Below are positions 10,793-21,852 of a DNA stretch of 64,000 nucleotides, piece after piece. The stretch covers positions 1 through 64,000 of the forward strand of contig JAICJH010000019.1 in assembly GCA_025928545.1 (NCBI GenBank), read 5' to 3'. The DNA comes from Bryobacteraceae bacterium. GTDB lineage: Bacteria > Acidobacteriota > Terriglobia > Bryobacterales > Bryobacteraceae. The notes beneath the pieces are model-generated. The model ran no database searches, was not told the DNA's origin, and saw only the letters and a list, made by a program, of their open reading frames with translations. Position numbers and translations under genes: made by a program. Numbering within the stretch: the first letter of the stretch is position 1; the number at the start of each line of letters is the position of its first letter.

Positions 10793-11839
10793 TCAGGATG
10801 GCCAATCGACTGATTCGAGCGGCGCGTCGGTTTGCCGGACAACAATCCAGTATTCGGTTGAGATGGTCGCTTTGGCGGGAAGCCAGCGATAGGTCGGGAT
10901 GTTGAACAGACGGCCTCGGTCGACGGTTTCGCGACGGGATTCGGGAAATGGCGAGACGCCGAATTCCATCCCGCGGGTGAGGGTTTGGCCGTTCCAGGGA
11001 CTTTCGGTGCGGCTGTGATTCTCTTCCCAGATGCCGAGCCAGGGGAAGTCGGAACGCTTCCAGATATAGCCGATTGCGACTTTGGATGATGGGCTCCAGG
11101 CGGTGAAGAAGGCGTGTTCTTTCGCCTCGTTCATGGCGTGGGCGGTGTAGCCGCTGGAGACGGGCGAGATATTCATAACGCGCAGATCCATCAGGGCACC
11201 GTCTTTGCGGGGTGCGAGCGGCCAATCGAATTCGGCGCCCGCGTTCAGATAGGCGTCGGTGCCGAACTCGGATTCGAAGACTTTGGATTGCGCCGCCGAG
11301 GCCCGGAATTGCGTGACGCCGCGCTCGAGAAAGGGGGGGCCAAGGGTGACGTGTTGCGTCCATCCGATGGGGCGGTCAAACGCGGCAAGGCTTTCGACGG
11401 TTTCGCAGATGCGGATCGCGGCGCCGCGCAGTTCGAGAGTGCGCTCGAAGCGGAGCTGCGCCAGCGGCATGGTGGTGGCCATGGTGAGACGACCTTTCGA
11501 TTCCGAAATATCGAAGGGCGCGACCGAGCCTTCTCCATGAGCTGTGACGCCGGCGGCTTCTTCTTCGGCCGACGGACCGCCGAAGATATCGAGGCAGAGG
11601 TTTTGACCCATGATGCCGGCGAGGAGGCGCGCGTCGCAGCCGGTTCCGAATTCCGGATGCTGCGCCGCGTCGAAGCTCACGGGATCGACGGATTTCCACG
11701 GCGGAGTCCAGAGCGGATTCACGCCGGTGCGTTTATGGACGATGGAGGCGATGTGTCCACCGCCAGGCAGAACGGTGACGTGGAGATCTGAATTCTCCGT
11801 TGTGAAGGCCTGACGGCCGTTGTATTTCGCTGCTGGCAT
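10793..11839 (-). CDS. Aldose 1-epimerase-like protein (galactose-mutarotase fold)
   Basis: 348 residues without a signal peptide. The sequence has the beta-sandwich character of the galactose mutarotase superfamily: VTVLPGGGHIASIVHKRTG near the N terminus, then GPPFLERGVTQFRASA, and WEENHSRTESPWNGQTLTRG, with His in positions that could serve catalysis (GWTQHVTLGPPF, about residue 163). Family members interconvert sugar anomers or bind carbohydrate. Only two bases separate it from the stop of the PqaA-like gene upstream, so it is the last gene of a probable operon MetE-like, OGL-like, PqaA-like, epimerase-like. The exact sugar is unknown. Confidence 0.75.
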   Translation of the reverse strand: MPAAKYNGRQAFTTENSDLHVTVLPGGGHIASIVHKRTGVNPLWTPPWKSVDPVSFDAAQHPEFGTGCDARLLAGIMGQNLCLDIFGGPSAEEEAAGVTAHGEGSVAPFDISESKGRLTMATTMPLAQLRFERTLELRGAAIRICETVESLAAFDRPIGWTQHVTLGPPFLERGVTQFRASAAQSKVFESEFGTDAYLNAGAEFDWPLAPRKDGALMDLRVMNISPVSSGYTAHAMNEAKEHAFFTAWSPSSKVAIGYIWKRSDFPWLGIWEENHSRTESPWNGQTLTRGMEFGVSPFPESRRETVDRGRLFNIPTYRWLPAKATISTEYWIVVRQTDAPLESVDWPS

Positions 11840-11841
11840 GG

Positions 11842-13233
11842 TTATTTGCGGTGCGGAGGCGGGCTGAAGGGAAGTGTATCCGGCGTGATTCGGATTCCGC
11901 TGGTCAATTTTATCGATGAAGTTTTGGTTGGGAAAGTGGCTTCGATGAAGAATGCGGTCCAGCCGGGATCGGGCTTGTCGATTTTCGCGATATAGAGGCC
12001 GCCACCTTTGTCGTCGAGCACGGTGCTGGTGTAGGCTTTACCGATGGAATCGAGCCGGAAGTCGCGGGCTTTGGGATTGTTGGCTTCCCACATCACCACC
12101 TGGGTTGGCTTCGTGATGGTCTTCATGTGGATGGAGCCGTCTTTTTCAAAGCTCCAGTCCAGCTGCGGACGCGGCTCATTGTTGACGATGGTTGAGTAGA
12201 ATGCGGCGGCGGATTCTCTGGCGTCGGAACCGTTGAGATCGTGCTTCGTATTGGGAACGTAGCGGAGGGCTTTCTCACCCTTCAGATCTTTCCAGTAGAA
12301 CTGGGATGAATCGGGAAGGAAGTATTGATCGCCGGCACTGTTTACGACGTACTTCGGCATGGTCAGGCGGTCTAGATATGAATAGGGATCTTCAATCGCC
12401 ATCAGCTTCTTGTATTGCGGGGTGCCCATCCAGTCGAACGTTTTCATCTCGATGTAGTCGGCGAGCGCTGTGGACCAGGAGCCGTAGGCGCTGTAGTGGT
12501 GTTCCGTGGCTTTCGAAACGTTGAGGGTGTCGATTACGAGCGGCATGATGGCGACTACGCGCTTATCGACAGCAGCTGTGGTCCAGGTTGTCCAGCCGCG
12601 TTTGGAAGCGCCGCAGACTACGAAATGTTCCACCGTGTCATTTTTCTCTTTTGCGACTGCGATTACGGTATCCATGGCGCGCACGGCCGCTTTGGTCATG
12701 GGGAGACGGAGGGGCCAGGTTTCGTTGTCTTTGCCGCTGCCTCGCATGAACTTGTCCCAGGTGTAGACGATGGCGGCATCTTCGGTGCGGGGTTTGGTTT
12801 CTCCCGCGAAGAGCAGAGGCTCATTGGGGATGCCACGGAGTTCGGCGGCAATCGTGTTGGTGCTGGTGGCAATGGAAACGACCAACGGGTCAGCCTGCTC
12901 GGGCGGAGCGCTGTTGATGGAGCCACCGGTCAGGAAAAGGAAGGCGGTGGATTTTGTGACGCGATCGGGAATGACGATGGTGAGCCAGTGGTGCCAGACG
13001 GGGTGGTCGACGTCCTTTTCGCTGCGCCATTTCTGCGAGGTGAGGTCGTAGACATATTGGGTGTAGCCACGGCCGGCAGCAGTTCGGGTGAGTACGTATT
13101 TATAGTTGGGGTCCGGGGCTGCGACGTAGCGGTCGAGGGCGGTCTGGCCGGCGAAGGCCTGGAGGATGGCGACCGTCAGGAGGGCGGCCAGTCTGAGTAT
13201 TCTCACCTGACGATTATGCCACCTGAACAACAT
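11842..13233 (-). CDS. PhoPQ-activated pathogenicity-related protein (PqaA-like), exported alpha/beta hydrolase
   Basis: 463 residues from the ATG at 13233, which overlaps the upstream gene by 20 bases; a GTG at 13209 (reading VRILRLAALLTVAILQAFAGQ) lies just after that gene's stop and gives a cleaner signal peptide. The body matches the PqaA family: GYTQYVYDLTSQKW, HPVWHHWLTIVIPD, FLTGGSIN, and the nucleophile block CGASKRGWTTWTTAAVDKRV with Ser in GASKRG. Further blocks IEDPYSYLDRLTMPKYVVNS and YVPNTKHDLNGSD carry the likely acid and His. The family is an exported alpha/beta hydrolase of uncertain substrate. In this setting among sugar genes a carbohydrate ester is a fair guess. Confidence 0.88.
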   Translation of the reverse strand: MLFRWHNRQVRILRLAALLTVAILQAFAGQTALDRYVAAPDPNYKYVLTRTAAGRGYTQYVYDLTSQKWRSEKDVDHPVWHHWLTIVIPDRVTKSTAFLFLTGGSINSAPPEQADPLVVSIATSTNTIAAELRGIPNEPLLFAGETKPRTEDAAIVYTWDKFMRGSGKDNETWPLRLPMTKAAVRAMDTVIAVAKEKNDTVEHFVVCGASKRGWTTWTTAAVDKRVVAIMPLVIDTLNVSKATEHHYSAYGSWSTALADYIEMKTFDWMGTPQYKKLMAIEDPYSYLDRLTMPKYVVNSAGDQYFLPDSSQFYWKDLKGEKALRYVPNTKHDLNGSDARESAAAFYSTIVNNEPRPQLDWSFEKDGSIHMKTITKPTQVVMWEANNPKARDFRLDSIGKAYTSTVLDDKGGGLYIAKIDKPDPGWTAFFIEATFPTKTSSIKLTSGIRITPDTLPFSPPPHRK

Positions 13234-14248
13234 AAACCTGGGTCACTCCAGTGCGATCGCTGGCGAAGGCTACCTGGTCTTCCTCAAGGGACCAGCTGGG
13301 ATGCGGATGGGTGTATTGCGGGCCATAGACTGTGTCGGCGGCGTTTTCCATCCAGCTGAGCGTCTTGTCCAGTGTGTTTTGGGCGTTGGCGAAGTCCTCC
13401 GCCAGCGCGTAAGAGGACTTCCGCCACTGGGTGCCCCGATTGCTTGATTGGCTGAGGCAGAGCTGCTTTCTTGCTCCGGTGGCTACGTCAATGATTTGCA
13501 GGCCCTCATCGGGGTGGTTTGTATCGCAGAGGATTCGTTCGCCGCGGCGATCCGGAGAAATATGCCACGCGTTGTAATCGGTTATGGTGGAAATCGCGCG
13601 CGTACTCCAATCCATGCGGCACAGTTTGTACGGCCAGATTGAGAAGACGATTTCGCCGGAATTGCGAAGGAATGTTTCGTGGACAATGAATTCGTCGTTA
13701 CCGTGTCGATAGAGGCATTCCATGCCGGTGCCGTCGCGGCGGACGCGATGCATGCGTGGGGCGGGATCGCCGGCGAATTCAATCCAGGCCGGATCGAGCG
13801 GATGAAATTGCGGATGGATTACGGTGCGCGGGAATGGAATGGCGTGCCAGGCGGTTCCGTCAAAGCGGCCTGCGACGAGACCGGACGTGCTGCCCGCTTT
13901 GAATGCCGCGGTGAGCCATTCGCCGTCGGGGCTAATGGAGCATTCGCCCAGTTCGGCGCCGGCGGCTTCGAAGATGCAGCGATCGCCTGTCCAGAGACTG
14001 CCACCGCGAGTGACGATGAGATCGCGGCCGTTCGGGTGGAGTGCAGGACTGTAGGGATGGATCGGGGCGCCGAATGTCAGCTGGCTGGTTTCGCCGGTTT
14101 CGAGAGAGACTTTCCACGCTTGAGCGTCGCCGCTCCGGTAGGAAGTGAAGAACATCGACTTGCCACCCGGAAAAAAGGAACTCTGGAGGAAGTAGCTGGG
14201 ATGGCTGATGGCGGGGCCGTCGGTGATCTGCCGGACTGTCGCTGTCAT
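13214..14248 (-). CDS. Oligogalacturonate lyase-like beta-propeller protein (PL22 type)
   Basis: 344 residues starting MTATVRQITDGPAISHPSYF. This ATG overlaps the stop of the MetE-like gene as ATGA, which supports it over the upstream start at 14335. The protein is a seven-bladed WD40-like propeller (SFFPGGKSMFFTSYRSG, ISPDGEWLTAAF, ISPDRRGERILCDTNHPDEG) with the histidines conserved in oligogalacturonate lyases: HPQFHPLDPAWIEFAG, HETFLRNSGEIVF and THPHPSWSLEEDQVAFASD. PL22 enzymes split pectin-derived digalacturonate by beta-elimination in the cytoplasm, and there is no signal peptide here. Relatives outside true PL22 have unknown substrates, so the reaction is tentative. Confidence 0.82.
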   Translation of the reverse strand: MTATVRQITDGPAISHPSYFLQSSFFPGGKSMFFTSYRSGDAQAWKVSLETGETSQLTFGAPIHPYSPALHPNGRDLIVTRGGSLWTGDRCIFEAAGAELGECSISPDGEWLTAAFKAGSTSGLVAGRFDGTAWHAIPFPRTVIHPQFHPLDPAWIEFAGDPAPRMHRVRRDGTGMECLYRHGNDEFIVHETFLRNSGEIVFSIWPYKLCRMDWSTRAISTITDYNAWHISPDRRGERILCDTNHPDEGLQIIDVATGARKQLCLSQSSNRGTQWRKSSYALAEDFANAQNTLDKTLSWMENAADTVYGPQYTHPHPSWSLEEDQVAFASDRTGVTQVYVVQVA

Positions 14249-15252
14249 CCACGCCCCAGGTAGACGTCGCGACCCTGAACCAGAGCGTCGATTTTGCGAT
14301 CGGCGATGGAGCGACGCAGCATCCAGAAGCCGCAATCGGGATGAACCCAGCCGATGCGGTCCGGCCCGAGGATTTGTTCGGCACGATGGATTCGGGCGGC
14401 AATTTCATCGGCCGTTTCGACGTGATTGATTTTCACATCGACGACACCGAGGCCGATTCGGATGCGGGGATCGACATCTTTCAGGGCAATCAGATCGTCT
14501 TCGGCGCGGTGCGCCATTTCCAGAATTACGTGATCGACCTGAAGGACATTCAGAAAGGTTGTCAGAGCGCGCCAGGTGCCCTTCTGCACGGTCTGGCCGC
14601 CATAGTTTCCAAAACAAAGATGCACGGCGCGACGGCCCTTGAAAGAACTCAGCACGCGATTGATCGCCTGAGCGGCGATGGCGCCATGTTCGGGGCTGCC
14701 GGGAATGTTGGCTTCGTCAACCTGAAGGCAATCACATGGCAGGCCCGTTACCTGCGCGGCCAAGGTGTCCGCGACTGCCATCAGGAGTGTGTGGAAATCT
14801 CCGTAGTGGTTATCGAGTAACGTGCGGGCCAGCATGTAGGGGCTGGTGACGGTGAACTTAAAGGGTCCGCCAGAAACGGCTGCCGCCATCTCGCAATCGG
14901 CGAGAAGGTTGAGGCCACCTTCGTCAATGGGGCCTTCGACCACGCCGGCAGCTTTACGGCGGAACTGCATGTGGCGCTGGGCGGCGAAAGCCTCGTGATC
15001 GCTGCGTCCCACCTGACTGCGGATGCCGGCCATCGGGCGCAGGAAGTAGTCGATCATGCCATTGGTATCGGGGTGATTCACGTCGAAGCGATAGAGTTCT
15101 CCATCGGTGGGAAGGTCAATGCCCGCCTGGCGCTGGATGTCGAAGACGACACGCGTGGCGTCGGTGCGCGCCTGCTCACTAGGGAGTGCGGCGAGCCAGT
15201 CGGGGATCGGGTAAGAGCCGACCGTTGTGGTGAGAATTTCTGGTTCCGGCAT
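14245..15252 (-). CDS. Core MetE-like methyltransferase (cobalamin-independent methionine synthase C-terminal domain)
   Basis: 335 residues, roughly half of a full MetE, equivalent to its catalytic C-terminal barrel only. The zinc ligands are in place: HLC (His211, Cys213), Glu245 in ILEMAH and Cys307 in HPDCGFW. TTTVGSYPIPDWL at the N terminus is the usual opening of these core proteins, and LQVDEANI and GLGVVDVK match the barrel. Core-MetE proteins can use methyl donors other than methyltetrahydrofolate-triglutamate. Its stop overlaps the start of the OGL-like gene, and the group continues into PqaA-like and epimerase-like genes, so it may serve a sugar or methyl-group pathway and not simple methionine synthesis. 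Confidence 0.88.
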   Translation of the reverse strand: MPEPEILTTTVGSYPIPDWLAALPSEQARTDATRVVFDIQRQAGIDLPTDGELYRFDVNHPDTNGMIDYFLRPMAGIRSQVGRSDHEAFAAQRHMQFRRKAAGVVEGPIDEGGLNLLADCEMAAAVSGGPFKFTVTSPYMLARTLLDNHYGDFHTLLMAVADTLAAQVTGLPCDCLQVDEANIPGSPEHGAIAAQAINRVLSSFKGRRAVHLCFGNYGGQTVQKGTWRALTTFLNVLQVDHVILEMAHRAEDDLIALKDVDPRIRIGLGVVDVKINHVETADEIAARIHRAEQILGPDRIGWVHPDCGFWMLRRSIADRKIDALVQGRDVYLGRG

Positions 15253-15285
15253 CGCCTTTTGGTTCGAATGCTGTGACTATATCTC

Positions 15286-15318
15286 AAAACGAACGCCTCC
15301 GGTCGGCCGGAGGCGTTT
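15286..15318 (-). terminator. Rho-independent terminator after the DUF1080 gene
   Basis: A perfect 11-base-pair stem (15292-15302 with 15307-15317) around a four-base loop, read on the minus strand and followed within a few bases by TTTT (15289-15286). It sits 40 bases past the DUF1080 stop and just upstream of the MetE-like start, so it separates the keto-sugar operon from the MetE-like operon. Confidence 0.82.
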
Positions 15319-15357
15319 CTGTTGTTCCGTAAATGACGGGCGTATCCGCGCCCGCGC

Positions 15358-16212
15358 TTAGTATTTTTTGAGCCAGATGTTCTTAGCAAACATCTCGCCC
15401 GTGCTCTCGACTTCGATGCCGATCTTGCCGCTGGCTTTGCCGATCGTTTTGTCCCGATCGATCGTTTCGGAGATCAGGTGTCCGTTCAGCAGGTGAGTCA
15501 GGACATTGCCCTGAGCGATGATCTCTTCCGTGTTCCAGTCGTCCTTCTTAAACCAGGAATCGACCGTGGCTTTGTCGCCTAAGGTGGCGAGGAGTTGTTT
15601 TGTGCCGCCGGAGCCCGCTTCAACGACTTCGCCTTTCCATGTGATGATGCCGCGCCCGGTCGATTGCTCATAGAGCTGGCCGGGGTAGCGATTGCCATTA
15701 TCGAAATCGAACTGATAGCCGGCCATTTCCCATTTCGCCTGGCTGGCGCGGGTTGGCTGGGGAGCTGGTGTCTGACCGCCAGGGCATGGCTGGGGGGCGC
15801 GCGCCGCCGGTTCAGCACCGGTGGTAATCCAGCTGCGATACTGAATTCCACTGTTGATATTGCCGGTGCCTTTCATCTCCATCCGGAGATCGAAATCGCC
15901 GACTTCCCCGCCCTGCCAGACGATGTAAACCGTGCCGGTGGGGTGTTCACAGCTGGCGGAGATATAGATGGAGCCATCTTTCACGGACCAAAGCTTGGGA
16001 TCGCCATCCCAGCCTTTGAGCGTTTTGCCATCAAACAGCGAGGTGAAGCCGTCGTGGTTATTAAAATCTTCCGCCGCGGCGTGAGTGAAGCCTCCGCCGC
16101 CACCTGCGCGGCCTCTGCCGGAAGCCCCGCCCGCCGGCGCCTGCGATAACGCAGTCACCACGCAGATTGTCATCATTCCCGCTGCCGCTAATGCGATTTT
16201 GTAAGTTTTCAT
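15358..16212 (-). CDS. Exported DUF1080 protein (3-keto-disaccharide hydrolase/lyase-like)
   Basis: 284 residues. A signal peptide (IALAAAGMMTICVVTALSQA) is followed by a Gly/Arg-rich tract (GGASGRGRAGGGGG, residues about 28-41). The DUF1080 jelly-roll then shows its diagnostic blocks: FTSLFDGKTLKGWDGD, WSVKDGSI, GDFDLRMEMKGTGNINSGIQ, and C-terminal LLNGHLISE, GKIGIEVES. Proteins of this family act on 3-keto-glycosides in the periplasm, hydrolysing or eliminating the glycosidic bond. It is the last gene of an operon with Gfo/Idh/MocA and TIM-barrel genes (gap of nine bases), which is the partner set expected for 3-oxidation of glycosides. A strong terminator follows. Confidence 0.9.
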   Translation of the reverse strand: MKTYKIALAAAGMMTICVVTALSQAPAGGASGRGRAGGGGGFTHAAAEDFNNHDGFTSLFDGKTLKGWDGDPKLWSVKDGSIYISASCEHPTGTVYIVWQGGEVGDFDLRMEMKGTGNINSGIQYRSWITTGAEPAARAPQPCPGGQTPAPQPTRASQAKWEMAGYQFDFDNGNRYPGQLYEQSTGRGIITWKGEVVEAGSGGTKQLLATLGDKATVDSWFKKDDWNTEEIIAQGNVLTHLLNGHLISETIDRDKTIGKASGKIGIEVESTGEMFAKNIWLKKY

Positions 16213-16221
16213 CGGAGTCTC

Positions 16222-17364
16222 CTAACCTAATACTTTCTGCCATTGCCTGGACTTGGCCGATTCCAGGACGGCGTCCGTTACGTAGTCCGCAGCCAGACCG
16301 TCGCGGAATGTGGGTGCGGCCTGTTTGCCTTCGCCGAGTGCTTTCAGAAAATCGGCAACCTGGTGCGTGAAGGTGTGTTCGTAGCCAATCTGAAGGCCGG
16401 GAACCCACCAGTTCTTCATGTAGGGATGATCGCTGTCGGTAATGTGGATACTGCGCCAACCGCGGAGGCGGCCTTCATCTGTGTGATCGAACCATTGGAG
16501 GCGGTGCAGATCGTGGAGATCCCAGATGGCGGAGGCCTTTTCACCGTTGATTTCGAGGGTGTAGAGCGCCTTATGGCCGCGAGCGTAACGGGTGGCTTCG
16601 AAGGATGCGAGCGAACCGTTGGCGAAGCGGCAGAGGAAGAGGCTGGCATCGTCGATATTCACCGGCGTCATCTCGCCTGTGAGGTTATGTTTGCGGGCCT
16701 TGATGAAGGTTTCGGTCATGGCCACCACTTCCGAGATTCCGCCGTTGAGCCAGAGAGCCGTGTCGATGTTGTGAGCCAGCAGGTCGCCGGTAACGCCCGA
16801 GCCGGCTACCGACGCATCGAGCCGCCAAAGGCCTTCCCCGCCCTGCGGGAGATCCTGCGAGATCGTCCAGTCCTGAAGGAACTTGGTGCGGTAGTGGAAG
16901 ATCTTGCCGAGGCGGCCTTCGTCGATCAGGTGCTTGAGCAGAACGACTGCCGGCACGCGGCGGTAGTTGTACCAGACCATGTTCGCGACTTTCGCGGCTT
17001 CCACGGCATCGACCATGGCTTTGGCTTCTTTGGCATTGCGGCCGAGAGGCTTTTCGCAAAGCACCATTTTGCCGGCTTTGGCGGCGGCAATGGCGATTTC
17101 GTGGTGGGTATCGTTGGGGCTGGCGATATCGACGATATCGATATCCTTGCGGTCGATGAGCTTACGCCAGTCGGATTCGATGGATTCGTAACCCCAGTTG
17201 TCGGCGAAAGCCTGGGCGCGCTCCGGATTGCGGGCGCAAACTGCCTTGAGGCCGATGGAATAAGGGAGATCGAAAAAGACCGGCGCCTGCCGGTATGCAT
17301 TCGAATGGGTACGGCCCATGAAGCCGTAACCGACTAAGCCTACGTTTAGTTTTTTCTTTGCCAT
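16222..17364 (-). CDS. Gfo/Idh/MocA family NAD(P)-dependent sugar oxidoreductase
   Basis: 380 residues without a signal peptide. The Rossmann loop is [16 protein letters not shown], followed by the family's EKPLGRN block (Lys about residue 102) and the catalytic region [17 protein letters not shown] with Asp and His in D-x(3)-H spacing. YNYRRVPAV is also typical. These enzymes oxidise or reduce sugar hydroxyls such as C2 or C3. It lies 12 bases after the TIM-barrel gene and nine before the DUF1080 gene, which supports a role as a glycoside or sugar 3-dehydrogenase making the substrate for its neighbours. The exact sugar and cofactor are not readable from sequence. Confidence 0.92.
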
Positions 17365-17376
17365 ATGGATTCCTCT

Positions 17377-18438
17377 TTAGTCCCAGCCGTGGGCGTTGCG
17401 GACCGAAATCATGGTTGCCAACACGTCGTTCCAGGTTGATCCGGCCATCATCGTGTCGTTGGGGAACATGCAGCCATCCCAGCAGATGTGTTGGGTGGAT
17501 TTCGTCAGGGCTCCGTTGTCGTCGCGCAGCCAGATGCCCGCGACCTTCGTGACGTTGATCTTGCCGTTGGGGTCGTTGGGGAGGCAGTGGCGGCCGGTTT
17601 TGTCATGCGAGCCCTGGCCTTTGACGGTGGCGTCATTCTGCGCGACGTGAAAATCCTTGATCCAGGGCCGCAGGGTGTGTGCCATGGTGCGAACGGCATC
17701 CTCGAAGACAGAGATGTCTTTCCAGTCGTAATCGTCCGGGAGAAGGCGATGCTCCGGTGCGTTGTAGCCCATCGTGTAGAGCGAGAGGTGCGCCATATCG
17801 GCCTGAATTCCCACAGTCTGCGGACGGCCGGTTTCTTCCATCAGTTCGGCGATGTATTTCCAGCTGTGCATGCCGCCCCAGCAGATTTCGCCTTCGGCGG
17901 CAAGTCGCTCGCCGTAGCTCTCGGCCACGTCCGCCGCTTCGCGGAAGGTAGCCGCGATCTTCTTCGTGTTGCCTTTTGGATCGGCGGCCCAATCTCCCGG
18001 ACCGGCGGCGGAATCGATACGGACTACACCGTATTTCCGGATGCCGAGATCGTTGAGCTTTTTGCCGATTGCGCAGGATTTCCGAACCTGTTTGACGAAA
18101 GCTTTGCGTTCTTCTTCAGAGCCCATGGCTGAACCGCCGCCGGTGGGCGGCCAGACGGGCGCCACGAGCGAGCCAATCATCAGATTGCGCCGGGCTACGG
18201 AATCGCGCAGCTTCTTCAGATCGTCGTCGGACGAATCGATATCGGTGTGCGGCAGAGAAAGAAACAGATCGACGCCATCGAAGCGAATACCATCCACATC
18301 GGCTTTGGCGGTGAGATCCAGCATCGTTTCGAGGTCAATCGGCGGTTCGGCTCCGGGGCCTTCTCCTCCTTTACCGACCAGACCCGGCCACATGGCATTG
18401 TGGATCGCGGGATATTTGTGCAGGTTCTGAGTGCTCAT
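17377..18438 (-). CDS. Sugar phosphate isomerase/epimerase-type TIM-barrel protein
   Basis: 353 residues of the xylose-isomerase-like TIM-barrel superfamily. Metal-site candidates are seen at AEGEICWGGMHSW (Glu then His), QADMAHLSLY (Asp, His), WIKDFHVAQND (Asp-x-His) and the closing acidic residues. DGIRFDGVDLFLS is an early barrel strand. In keto-sugar operons such proteins isomerise or epimerise the oxidised sugar. It is the second gene of the four-gene unit, 23 bases from the bicupin gene and 12 from the oxidoreductase gene. No signal peptide, so cytoplasmic. Confidence 0.88.
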   Translation of the reverse strand: MSTQNLHKYPAIHNAMWPGLVGKGGEGPGAEPPIDLETMLDLTAKADVDGIRFDGVDLFLSLPHTDIDSSDDDLKKLRDSVARRNLMIGSLVAPVWPPTGGGSAMGSEEERKAFVKQVRKSCAIGKKLNDLGIRKYGVVRIDSAAGPGDWAADPKGNTKKIAATFREAADVAESYGERLAAEGEICWGGMHSWKYIAELMEETGRPQTVGIQADMAHLSLYTMGYNAPEHRLLPDDYDWKDISVFEDAVRTMAHTLRPWIKDFHVAQNDATVKGQGSHDKTGRHCLPNDPNGKINVTKVAGIWLRDDNGALTKSTQHICWDGCMFPNDTMMAGSTWNDVLATMISVRNAHGWD

Positions 18439-18461
18439 AATGTATTCTCCCTGGAACTTTA

Positions 18462-19703
18462 TCAGATATTCTTCTTTCCAAATGTTTCGGCAGTGCGGCG
18501 AAGCGATTCGGCATCCGGATTATTGGGGCCGAAGTGCTTCAGGATGACGAGCGGGTCGGAATCGCTGGTATTGACTATGCGAACTCCGGACTGCGCCGCC
18601 CGGGCGGTAACAAAGAATTCATCCTGAGTCATGTCGCCAAAACGGATCATAGTTGGCGTGAGTATTTCATAGCCGCCGAACGTACCGGCTCCCTGAGTTG
18701 CGATGATGCCATAGGCCTCGGCGTCTTTCAGGGTTATGGCGCGCCCGGGAAACACGGTCAGCTCTTTCGCGGAGTAATAACCGGTGCCGTAAGCGATCCA
18801 TGTTTCGCGATAACCCGCATCATGCATCTCTTTCAGTGGCCGGACGGGTTTGGGTTTTGTCTTGTTGGCCTCGGCAAAACGCTCATTCACGTTCGCGTCC
18901 CAATCGAGCATGGAGATCAGATAGTCAAGATCGTGGTGGTATTCGGGCAGGACGTCTTTGGTCATCAGCGACCAATCGACGATGCGGCCTTCGACAGCCG
19001 ACTGGAACATGGCAAATACGTCGCTTGCCACCTGCGGTTCGTAAGTTACAAGGGAGCCGGGCGCGTGCAACACGCCGGGATCGATCTGCCAGCCTTCGCC
19101 GGGAATCAGGCGGTAGGCGCGGGACTGGTTGAGGATCCGGTTATCGCCTTTGTTCCAGTTCGCCAGACATTTGCGGACGTCTTCTTTCGTGGTGCCCGGT
19201 TCCAGACCCATGAAGGTGTAGGGGAAATTATTCTCCTGCTGGTTGTATTGGGGCGGAAAATAATAAGCCTCGGGCTTGCCTTTTTGCCCAACAAGTTTGG
19301 CCACCGCATCGCTCTGGTGCATGTGGTGGGGGATGGGTCCCATGTTGTCGAAGAACTTGCACAGCAGATTCCAGCCGCCTTCACGCGCCATGGCTGCGCC
19401 CAGCAGGTCGTCGCCTGCGACTTCGATGGCATCGCGCAGCAGGAAGTGCGATCCGTTGGCGTGACGGACAAAACTCAGCCCCTCGAATTCGGTGGTGTGT
19501 TCGCCGTTGGCTGCTTTGGTGGTTGAGCAGAACCATCGCTCATTGATCCCGCCGCGATGCGCGCCATACGCATAAAGGTCGTCAGGATGAAGCCTCAGGC
19601 GACGGCCCGGAACCATGAAAGAACGCGGAACCCAGTTCGGTTCCAGACTGAGAATTCCAGCCCCATCGTCGATTGCGTCGCGGACGTGTCCCTGCTTCAG
19701 CAT
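18462..19703 (-). CDS. Bicupin sugar isomerase-like protein (mannose-6-phosphate isomerase class I relative)
   Basis: 413 residues. The N-terminal block (EPNWVPRSFMVPGRRLRLHP) is followed by GPIPHHMHQSDAVAKL, equivalent to the metal-binding Q-x-HP region of type I phosphomannose isomerases, and by IPGEGWQIDPGVLHAPGSLV plus YEPQVASDVF, matching their second metal-site motif with Gly-x-x-His-Ala and Glu. A second, shorter cupin occupies the C-terminal third (GTFGGYEILTPT). It opens the operon bicupin, TIM-barrel, Gfo/Idh/MocA, DUF1080 and probably interconverts a hexose or keto-sugar. A perfect TATAAT lies five bases upstream of the start. The precise reaction is inferred only from fold and context. 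Confidence 0.78.
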   Translation of the reverse strand: MLKQGHVRDAIDDGAGILSLEPNWVPRSFMVPGRRLRLHPDDLYAYGAHRGGINERWFCSTTKAANGEHTTEFEGLSFVRHANGSHFLLRDAIEVAGDDLLGAAMAREGGWNLLCKFFDNMGPIPHHMHQSDAVAKLVGQKGKPEAYYFPPQYNQQENNFPYTFMGLEPGTTKEDVRKCLANWNKGDNRILNQSRAYRLIPGEGWQIDPGVLHAPGSLVTYEPQVASDVFAMFQSAVEGRIVDWSLMTKDVLPEYHHDLDYLISMLDWDANVNERFAEANKTKPKPVRPLKEMHDAGYRETWIAYGTGYYSAKELTVFPGRAITLKDAEAYGIIATQGAGTFGGYEILTPTMIRFGDMTQDEFFVTARAAQSGVRIVNTSDSDPLVILKHFGPNNPDAESLRRTAETFGKKNI

Positions 19704-19708
19704 TGATC

Positions 19709-19714
19709 ATTATA
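19709..19714 (-). promoter_or_regulatory. TATAAT box immediately upstream of the bicupin gene
   Basis: On the minus strand TATAAT ends five bases before the ATG at 19703. A weak -35-like TTCTTT lies about 16 bases further upstream. If used, transcription would begin at or next to the start codon, giving a leaderless message. The same geometry occurs at the 4876 gene. Confidence 0.35.
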
Positions 19715-19810
19715 GGAAGAAATTCCAGGAAAGAACAGGTCTGCCGGGAAGTTTTTAAGTGACGAATGGTCGTACCAAATCAATGAGATACGGGTCGCAT
19801 CCTGCCTGAA

Positions 19811-21346
19811 TTATAGCGGAATATTGCCGTGTTTTTTCCTCGGCATCGTGTCCACTTTCGTCTCCAGCATGCGGAGACTGCGAATGATGCGGGCGCGGGT
19901 TTCTCTCGGTTCAATCACATCGTCGATGAAGCCGCGCTCGGCTGCCACGAACGGGCTGGCGAAGCGATCGTTGAATTCCGCGATCTTGTCTCCGCGCGCA
20001 CCGGCGTCTCCGTTTACCAGTTCGCGCCGGTAAATAATATTCACCGCTCCTTCGGCTCCCATCACGGCGATTTCGGCTGTCGGCCAGGCGAGATTCACGT
20101 CGGTCCGCAGGTGCTTGGAGCCCATCACGCAGTAGGCTCCGCCGTAGGCTTTGCGAGTGATCACGGTGATCTTCGGCACGGTGGCCTCGGCATAGGCGTA
20201 GAGGAGCTTCGCGCCGTGCCGAATGATGCCGCCGAATTCCTGATCGGTACCAGGCAGAAAACCGGGGACATCTTCGAAAGTAACGATCGGGATGTTAAAG
20301 GCATCGCAGAACCTCACGAAGCGGGCCCCTTTTACCGACGAGTTGATGTCGAGGCATCCGGCCAGGAACGCAGGCTGATTGGCCACGATACCCACGGGAC
20401 GGCCATCGAGACGGGCGAAGCCGACAACGATATTCTTCGCGAAATGCTGCTGCACCTCGAAAAAATCGGCATCATCGACCACACGATGGATGACGTCTTT
20501 CATATCGTAGGGCTGGTTGGATTCGGCGGGCACGATGCGGTCAAGTTCGGGATCGGCGCGGTCGATGGGGTCCGCGGAGGCGCGGCGCGGCGGATCTTCG
20601 CGATTGTTCTGCGGGAGGAAGCTCAGCAGTTCGCGAATCATCTGGACGCATTCGGTATCGTTGGCGGCAATGAAATGGCCGACGCCGCTTTTGGCGTTGT
20701 GCGTCATGGAGCCGCCGAGTTCCTCCTTCGTTACGTCTTCGTGAGTAACGGTCTTAATCACGTCGGGGCCGGTCACAAACATGTAGCTGGTATCGGCCAC
20801 CATGAAGACAAAGTCGGTGATGGCCGGCGAGTAGACGGCGCCACCGGCGCAGGGACCCATGATGGCGGAGATCTGCGGAATGACTCCGCTGGCGAGTGTA
20901 TTGCGAAGGAAAATGTCGGCGTAGCCCCCGAGCGAGAGGACGCCCTCCTGAATGCGCGCGCCGCCCGAGTCGTTGAGGCCGATGACCGGCGCTCCGGTTT
21001 TAAGGGCAAGATCCATCACTTTGCAAATCTTGAGGGCATTGGTTTCGGAGAGTGAGCCACCGAAAACCGTGAAATCCTGGGCGAATACATAGGCCGGGCG
21101 GCCGTTGATGCGGCCAAAGCCGGTGACGAGTCCGTCGCCGGGTATGACCTGCTGGTCCATGCCAAAATCGCGGCAGCGGTGCTCCACCAGTTTGTCGAAT
21201 TCCTCGAAGGTGCCTTCATCGAGCAGAAGTTCGACCCGTTCGCGGACGGCCAGCTTGCCTTCGCGATGCTGGCGCTCGCGGCGTTCGGCTCCTCCGCCTT
21301 CTTCAGCTGCGGCGTGGCGGCGGCGGAGTTCTTCGAGGCGATTCAT
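19811..21346 (-). CDS. pccB: Acyl-CoA (propionyl-CoA) carboxylase beta subunit, carboxyltransferase
   Basis: 511 residues, full length for the family. Both crotonase-like halves are visible: [53 protein letters not shown], the oxyanion-forming [16 protein letters not shown], and in the second half [24 protein letters not shown] and [13 protein letters not shown] with [17 protein letters not shown]. The enzyme moves carboxyl from biotin to propionyl- or acetyl-CoA. The biotin carboxylase/carrier subunit is not in this window. It is flanked by a 100-base gap upstream of the bicupin gene and a 68-base gap from the cupin gene, so it is probably transcribed alone or with the cupin. Substrate preference cannot be fixed by eye. 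Confidence 0.95.
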
Positions 21347-21414
21347 ATGGTTGAGGGTAACGCATCACGGATCAGCGGCCGGCGCCTGACGGTACGCGCG
21401 AAGGAGAACAGAGT

Positions 21415-21852
21415 TCAAGCCGCGTCGGCGCGCAGTTCGACGACATAGTAGCGGCAGTGGCCGGCTCCGGCGTTGCTGAAGTTGTGGAGTTGATTGCTGG
21501 CGAAAAAGGTCACTGAGCCCGCGCCCGCACGCTGGACATCGCCCTCGATATTGACGTCGATGGTGCCTTCGACGATCGTGATAATCTCTTCATTCACGTG
21601 CCGATGCGGCGGGTGGGAAATCTCGCCCGGGCCGAGAATCGTTTCATGCACTTCGAGGTTAAAACCCGTGTGAGTGGTTCCCAGCATGAATCGGCGGCCC
21701 TTCTTCTTATCGTCGCCTGAGTAGGGAATCTTTTCGGTGTGGTAAACCTTTGAAGGAAGTACAACAGTTTTGGGCGGCACGGGCGTCTGCGCGGCGACGA
21801 CGGAAGTCAGCGACGGCAACAGAAGATTCATATCTCTGCGGGAAAGTTTCAT
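21415..21852 (-). CDS. Small exported cupin protein with Tat-like signal
   Basis: 145 residues starting MKLSRRDMNLLLPSLTSVV; the SRRDMNLLL block is a twin-arginine signal. An upstream in-frame start at 21909 would extend across the shared promoter region and is unlikely. The single cupin carries the metal motif HPPHRHVNEEIITIVEG (His83, His85, Glu89 numbering from this start) and a later LHNFSN His. Cupin-fold proteins of this size are often dioxygenase-like or sugar-binding; the reaction is unknown. It is divergent from the SDR gene, sharing a 77-base intergenic region. Confidence 0.85.
   Translation of the reverse strand: MKLSRRDMNLLLPSLTSVVAAQTPVPPKTVVLPSKVYHTEKIPYSGDDKKKGRRFMLGTTHTGFNLEVHETILGPGEISHPPHRHVNEEIITIVEGTIDVNIEGDVQRAGAGSVTFFASNQLHNFSNAGAGHCRYYVVELRADAA

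Follow-up and report, generated by a model that had tools for sequence, protein, structure and literature searches.

The closest described systems are bacterial gene sets for sugars that pass through 3-keto intermediates. In Bacillus smithii, the Lgd pathway encoded by lgdA-lgdB1-lgdB2-lgdC combines levoglucosan dehydrogenase (LGDH), TIM-barrel proteins acting as eliminase/hydratase and a reductase, which together amount to a formal hydrolase, and LgdB2 seems capable of both elimination and hydration (PMC7676230). A dual activity of LgdA is mentioned as a suggestion in another paper (PMC10066097). Further systems are the GlycDH/AtOGE/AtHYD operon of A. tumefaciens (PMC10628242) and a periplasmic 3-ketoglycoside route (CCNA_01705, BT2157; PMC9007349). 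The present analysis concerns an operon found in a stretch of 64,000 nucleotides from a Bryobacteraceae bacterium (contig JAICJH010000019.1, positions 1 to 64,000; the window), which encodes a bicupin protein, a TIM-barrel protein, a Gfo/Idh/MocA oxidoreductase and a DUF1080 protein. With about even chances, the operon represents a route for processing sugars that combines 3-keto chemistry with an aldose isomerase.

The window set resembles the B. smithii operon in joining an LGDH-like Gfo/Idh/MocA protein to a TIM-barrel partner, which in B. smithii is sugar-phosphate-isomerase-like, and LacI and ABC genes, present near the Lgd genes, also occur near a few relatives of the window set. It differs in having one protein of each kind instead of two and in adding a bicupin with the fold of phosphomannose isomerase (PMI) and a DUF1080 protein; besides, the window oxidoreductase scores below the LGDH cut-off. 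With the A. tumefaciens operon it shares an oxidoreductase accompanied by xylose-isomerase-like TIM barrels (PMC10628242), and AtHYD itself ranks first in the Foldseek search with the window TIM protein. Unlike that operon, the window has a TIM profile without a PDB sequence match, and the word "cupin" is absent from the text of PMC10628242. A signal-bearing DUF1080 protein within a sugar gene set is common to the window and the periplasmic route, but no LacABC-type gene is among the window neighbours scanned, and the window oxidoreductase has no signal-like N-terminus (PMC9007349).

All four genes lie on the minus strand. The first is the bicupin gene (18462-19703, 413 aa), followed by those of the xylose-isomerase-like TIM barrel (PF01261; 17377-18438, 353 aa), the Gfo/Idh/MocA oxidoreductase (16222-17364, 380 aa) and the DUF1080/PF06439 protein of the 3-keto-disaccharide hydrolase family (15358-16212, 284 aa), as given by the list of open reading frames and, for the last three, by Pfam. 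The intergenic gaps are 23, 12 and 9 bases, in agreement with the spacing given in an earlier model-generated note on this DNA, and a Shine-Dalgarno-like sequence stands just 5' of the starts of the last three genes. The four-gene set is real, and its co-transcription as an operon is predicted. The complete set is conserved in the same order in two congeners, with identities of 93-94% for the oxidoreductase, 89% for the TIM protein, 83-84% for the bicupin, and 57 and 66% for the DUF1080 protein.

Relatives of the bicupin were sought in 297 Acidobacteriota genomes, 19 of which gave a match, and in a species-level collection (84,980 species, each represented by one genome), which yielded at least 584 confirmed bicupin stretches. 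As the loci used are the best 80 of these at least 584 stretches, the shares of contexts lean towards the window's type; the context counts take overlapping loci and only bicupins above 300 bits (L037-L039 and L151 were excluded). When two weak bicupin matches (E 5e-17 and 6e-20) are left aside, the bicupin (17 genomes) and the TIM protein (18) occur together in 13 of the 297 genomes, the bicupin alone in 4, the TIM protein alone in 5 and neither in 275 (Fisher p 1e-15, on raw counts uncorrected for shared ancestry). In one genome of the bicupin-alone class (G104), a fragment of the TIM gene lies at the end of a contig.

The core of bicupin, TIM and oxidoreductase genes recurs in Acidobacteriota, Bacteroidota, Planctomycetota and, at one locus, Verrucomicrobiota. 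Thirty loci with both TIM and oxidoreductase genes, the window included, were compared by counting genes of the scanned families on the bicupin's strand; other genes may intervene, some loci are near-copies and some are cut by contig ends. The order bicupin-TIM-oxidoreductase is found in 26 of them and TIM-oxidoreductase-bicupin in three. The bicupin had been regarded in the earlier note as an unusual partner at the head of the set; the neighbourhood analysis reveals instead a constant lead gene. In a tree of 111 bicupins, built after manual removal of the duplicates L142, L144, L147, L153-L157 and L160 and scripted removal of identical sequences, the window falls inside a supported clade of 20 rows, all of which have the TIM gene and 18 also the oxidoreductase. 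The TIM label requires nine changes on this tree, which indicates that the link between bicupin and TIM protein has been gained or lost repeatedly. Six stretches carry the TIM gene without an adjoining bicupin (L120-L125); four of them contain the TIM-oxidoreductase pair, two of these with DUF1080, and in one genome (G125, stretch L124) a bicupin is encoded elsewhere, not beside the TIM gene.

No Pfam or NCBIfam model, including the curated model of type I PMI, matched the bicupin at 1e-3. Its AlphaFold2 model (pLDDT 93.5) consists of two cupins in a PMI-type fold, which bears out the two-cupin architecture proposed earlier. Comparison with PMI structures gave a Z-score of 29.7 over 302 aligned residues at 2.5 Å; the first 16 rows of the fold search are all PMIs (Z 26.7-29.7), and the next family follows at Z 15.4. 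The hhalign comparison with the PMIs of two congeners gave 97.1% (E 6e-11, 273 columns). The zinc positions Q-H-E-H of PMI align with H127-H129-E145-H213 of the bicupin, and H127, H129, K143-P144-E145 and H213, which include a lysine two residues before the glutamate, are invariant in 54 sequences. The conserved arginine of PMI after the SD motif (R274 in Salmonella) falls on Ala231 (Met232 if ungapped), and this fits a substrate without phosphate. Thus, the bicupin shares with type I PMI (ManA) the fold, the zinc-ligand positions and a GLxPGTT stretch, but differs from it in the replaced arginine, in the lack of a curated family match and in the operons of its relatives, which serve free-sugar catabolism. 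We read it as a zinc-dependent aldose-ketose isomerase of free sugars, a function predicted from the fold, the zinc-ligand positions and these operons. The genome to which the window belongs gave no match to PF20511 (type I PMI) at 1e-3. The same genome (G000) encodes a second, distant bicupin homolog of about 30-33% identity (L020/L037, C54).

The AraA, RhaA and RhaI families are not known to have a bicupin fold; like these isomerases, the bicupin has relatives that are encoded beside AraB/AraD or RhaEW/RhaB. On a 3.53-Mb Spirochaetota chromosome (L077), the genes for the bicupin, AraB (602.7 bits, cut-off 583.25) and AraD (above cut-off) are consecutive. In another member of the phylum (L083), AraB (611.1 bits) and AraD (350.5 bits, cut-off 257) are encoded on the same strand about 3.7 kb after the bicupin, and neither of the two genomes contains a match to PF02610 (AraA). 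A third locus (L080) has the order AraD-bicupin-FGGY kinase in a genome with only a weak PF02610 match of 54 bits. Among 149 Spirochaetota genomes, 11 contain the bicupin, 32 AraD and 10 both (Fisher p 6e-7); two of the 11 bicupins reach an identity of only 37-39%. A distant plasmid homolog from Arthrobacter (33%) lies among genes for ribose-ABC, dihydroxyacetone kinase, ribose-5-phosphate isomerase, triose-phosphate-isomerase-like and alcohol dehydrogenase proteins.

Rhamnose genes accompany the bicupin in the window's own genus. With a threshold of E 1e-50, it was found in 12 of 19 genomes of the genus; three of these (G000, G308, G297) have the window type, and the other nine a second type, 62-68% identical to it. 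The second type adjoins RhaEW in all seven congeners with loci (L155-L161; G307 and G299 stand outside this count), five of which also encode RhaB in the short stretch. Wider stretches from four congeners (L164-L167) contain both RhaEW and RhaB, the latter about 3.6 kb further on in L166, and the same context was met at L072, L073 and L078 of the wider collection. RhaEW scored above cut-off in four of four cases tested, and the best match of RhaB was rhamnulokinase in six of six, at 378-483 bits and below the cut-off of 528. In a congener without the bicupin (G300, L168), a RhaI-like gene stands directly before RhaEW-RhaB. RhaA gave no match in any of the 19 genomes. Tentatively, and at slightly less than even chances, the family of PMI-fold bicupins (at least 584 stretches) can be considered a further structural solution to the isomerisation of free aldoses, which would take AraA's place in some arabinose operons, share or take over the RhaI step in rhamnose operons and be joined to a compact 3-keto-sugar module in the window's lineage.

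A number of observations weigh against the proposed reading of the operon and its bicupin. Two genes of the molybdopterin-synthesis type separate the bicupin from AraB in L083, and two genomes in which the bicupin lies with ABC, LacI and AraD genes (L094, L119) encode AraA elsewhere. In Spirochaetota, AraA is present in three of the 11 bicupin genomes versus 10 of 149 overall, without any anti-correlation, and among AraD-positive genomes the bicupin occurs in 7 of 23 without AraA and in 3 of 9 with it. The missing anti-correlation in these 149 genomes rules out the bicupin as a general replacement of AraA. RhaI-like genes, which score 466-494 bits when complete (cut-off 531), are present in 14 of the 19 genomes of the genus, the window's own among them, at distances of about 9 kb (G305) and 12 kb (G302) from the bicupin in two cases. 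Since all 12 genomes with the bicupin also have them, it is not the only candidate L-rhamnose isomerase there, and despite the lack of RhaA a role as the sole one is not claimed. There was no informative context for 39 of the 111 tree rows. The substrate of the window bicupin may also differ, because it is 62-68% identical to the rhamnose group and 55-57% to the arabinose group.

The remaining three assignments of the earlier note hold at the level of families. The oxidoreductase matches PF01408, PF22725 and PF02894 above their cut-offs. Its nearest described function is that of LGDH (NF052479, 349.8 bits, below the cut-off of 650), and the PDB matches are levoglucosan 3-dehydrogenase 6a3f (E 3.4e-88) and 4h3v; the protein is LGDH-like by sequence, with membership in the LgdA family not proven. 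The TIM protein matches PF01261 above cut-off (AlphaFold2 pLDDT 86.4), and in Foldseek its first-ranked structure is AtHYD, a 2-hydroxy-3-keto-glucal hydratase (8ro4, E 1.2e-10). The Z-scores of IolE (25.1), IolI (24.6), tagatose epimerases and AtHYD (23.6) differ little; the fold cannot separate a hydratase, eliminase, dehydratase or epimerase, which also limits the proposed reading of the operon. No NCBIfam match and no PDB match by sequence or profile was found. Five residues (E182, E184, D214, H264 and D321) do not vary among 21 sequences and are placed at or close to the ends of predicted barrel strands, which suggests a metal site. A metal-dependent eliminase/hydratase or 3-epimerase is proposed from these features. 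The DUF1080 protein belongs to PF06439 (107.4 bits, cut-off 26.8). Since the oxidoreductase is nearest to LGDH, the TIM protein has AtHYD as its best Foldseek match and PF06439 is named 3-keto-disaccharide hydrolase, 3-keto-sugar chemistry is likely.

Using a crude hydrophobicity cut and mechanically picked start codons, signal-like N-termini were found in 12 of 14 DUF1080 proteins, none of 29 oxidoreductases, none of 28 TIM proteins and one of 85 bicupins. The DUF1080 protein thus looks exported and the other three proteins look cytosolic; therefore, the splitting enzyme and the NAD enzyme probably do not share a compartment. Counted when on the same strand and above 150 bits, DUF1080 is present in 17 of the 30 core loci and is therefore a looser, not a fixed, partner. 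Among the 13 loci without it, the gene is on the opposite strand in L027, weak and on the same strand in L108, weak and opposite in L086 and L112, and L042 is cut by a contig end. The window's genome contains a large expansion of PF06439, with 32 matches, some of which are pieces of one open reading frame. It also contains three matches to GMC oxidoreductases, a possible source of periplasmic 3-keto-sugars.

These results bear on the linear pathway of the earlier note, in which, once spelled out, the oxidoreductase oxidises C3 of a glycoside, the DUF1080 protein splits it, the TIM protein and the oxidoreductase recycle 3-keto-glucose to glucose, and the bicupin is a loose extra. The 3-keto part of this proposal is likely to stand, as it draws on the LGDH-like oxidoreductase, PF06439 and the AtHYD-like TIM fold, and analogous operons have been published (PMC7676230 and PMC10628242). 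The oxidise-split-recycle sequence as a whole is unlikely, since the DUF1080 protein apparently resides in another compartment and is encoded at only part of the core loci, 13 of the 30 having no same-strand gene above the limit, whereas the bicupin is a constant member. The four-gene set was probably also too narrow: it omitted a DUF4432-like gene (10793-11839, minus strand), a type found on the same strand in 20 of the 30 core loci within the limits of the script. The window protein is 49-59% identical to the product of the gene following DUF1080 in L021, L028, L029 and L045, and scores 18.8 bits against PF14486, below the cut-off of 32.5. Three other genes separate it from DUF1080 in the window, and it is, by sequence, a probable detached member of the set.

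A rare-sugar route, in which the oxidoreductase would form allose or some other aldose by reducing a 3-keto-sugar, the bicupin would convert this to a ketose (e.g., psicose) and the TIM protein would act as a ketose 3-epimerase to give fructose, has an equally low probability. Ketose 3-epimerases are among the fold matches of the TIM protein (Z about 23-24), and in 13 tree rows from Bryobacterales and kin the bicupin is paired with another TIM subfamily, TIM10, the one tested member of which is D-psicose-3-epimerase-like. This member, however, scores 165.8 bits with a cut-off of 300, and the window TIM protein, of a different subfamily, lacks any NCBIfam or PDB sequence match.

Inositol-like (cyclitol) catabolism, with the oxidoreductase as IolG, the TIM protein as an IolE dehydratase and the bicupin in the role of IolB, which is itself a bicupin, is much less probable. 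IolE has the highest Z-score for the TIM protein, and the IolG model matches the oxidoreductase (121.5 bits, cut-off 355), but the latter scores far higher for LGDH, the bicupin lacks a Pfam match and its fold matches PMI far above the rest, and IolD- and IolC-like proteins are absent from the ten window proteins scanned with Pfam. Cupins of the IolB/KduI type were not among the 50 rows shown of the bicupin fold search, which carries no weight as proof. Least probable of all is co-location merely because sugar genes cluster, without a single pathway: the PF06439 expansion makes a DUF1080 neighbour cheap, but the same gene order across several phyla, the co-occurrence in 297 genomes and the tight spacing speak against it.

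In the preferred reading, a sugar-processing route with 3-keto chemistry and an aldose isomerase, the cytosolic oxidoreductase would use NAD to oxidise, and perhaps later reduce, a glycoside, anhydrosugar or keto-sugar at C3, as its likeness to LgdA suggests. The TIM barrel, judging by its fold, would perform elimination and hydration or a C3 epimerisation beside the keto group. One oxidoreductase and one TIM protein could suffice on the model of the Lgd system, because LgdB2 seems to both eliminate and hydrate and LgdA was suggested to be dual (PMC7676230, PMC10066097). The bicupin would isomerise the released aldose, which carries no phosphate, to a ketose that is then catabolised further, as its fold, zinc positions and the operons of its relatives suggest, and the DUF4432-like protein might conceivably supply the right anomer. 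The exported DUF1080 protein may act outside the cell on 3-keto-glycosides made elsewhere.

The operon is followed by a hairpin on the minus strand (15291-15318), a likely intrinsic terminator according to folding and a terminator scan. Of the "strong terminator" predicted earlier, the G+C-rich stem of 11-12 bp stands (folding energy of the 66-nt stretch -26.5 kcal/mol, z -3.88), but the operon strand has only a short T tract (CGTTTTG), and for this reason the consensus scan gave the hairpin only for the plus strand. Upstream, a carboxyl-transferase gene on the same strand ends at 19811. Palindromes like TGGTACGACCA are typical of GntR/FadR regulators, so the copy at 19767-19777 (minus strand), found by pattern search upstream of the operon, is a candidate operator. 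The pattern TGGTACNACCA has one exact match in the window (0.05 expected on average; four of 100 shuffles had one) and also stands 5' of the bicupin gene in both congeners (L162, L163); elsewhere among 177 loci it was found only in L057 and L090, there not upstream of the bicupin. A -10-like TATAAT (19709-19714, minus strand), read from the sequence, lies 5 nt 5' of the bicupin ATG, so that the mRNA is possibly leaderless here; in the two congeners the hexamer is some tens of bases further up from the start. The sigma-70 scan gave no site within 13000-21500 of the window.

Downstream of the operon, a second tight minus-strand unit (10793-15252) encodes MetE-like, TolB/oligogalacturonate-lyase-like, PhoPQ-activated-like (PF10142) and DUF4432-like proteins, with overlaps or gaps of a few bases. 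The first three gave no tblastn match in 99 loci and were judged to form a separate unit, not members of the operon; the MetE-like gene is kept in one congener (L163), about 960 bases after DUF1080. Near the TIM-oxidoreductase genes of Acidobacteriota loci (L021-L024, L027, L040, L043-L045, L068, L120-L122), one or two proteins of about 530 aa without a confident family are encoded. Paired c4 genes, present near many Acidobacteriota loci, gave no confident family match for the one member tested. In Bacteroidota, a heme-domain protein (TIGR02603 above cut-off) is encoded upstream of the gene set in L092 and L106, and SusD-like genes are near it in L106 and L112.

Among the open-licence papers listed, neither DUF1080 and cupin together nor this gene set or such a bicupin as a free-sugar isomerase was found, which is weak evidence of novelty, and "cupin" does not occur in the text of PMC3870299. 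As a module, the gene set is a variant of 3-keto-sugar systems already described, and the isomerase family, if confirmed, would be the new part. If the reading is true, a widespread hypothetical protein would gain a concrete, testable function, and for some Spirochaetota and Acidobacteriota the apparent gaps in their arabinose and rhamnose pathways would be filled. Isomerases of free sugars also have practical value for rare sugars. The catabolism of 3-keto-sugars, in turn, would gain a variant with a built-in aldose isomerase.

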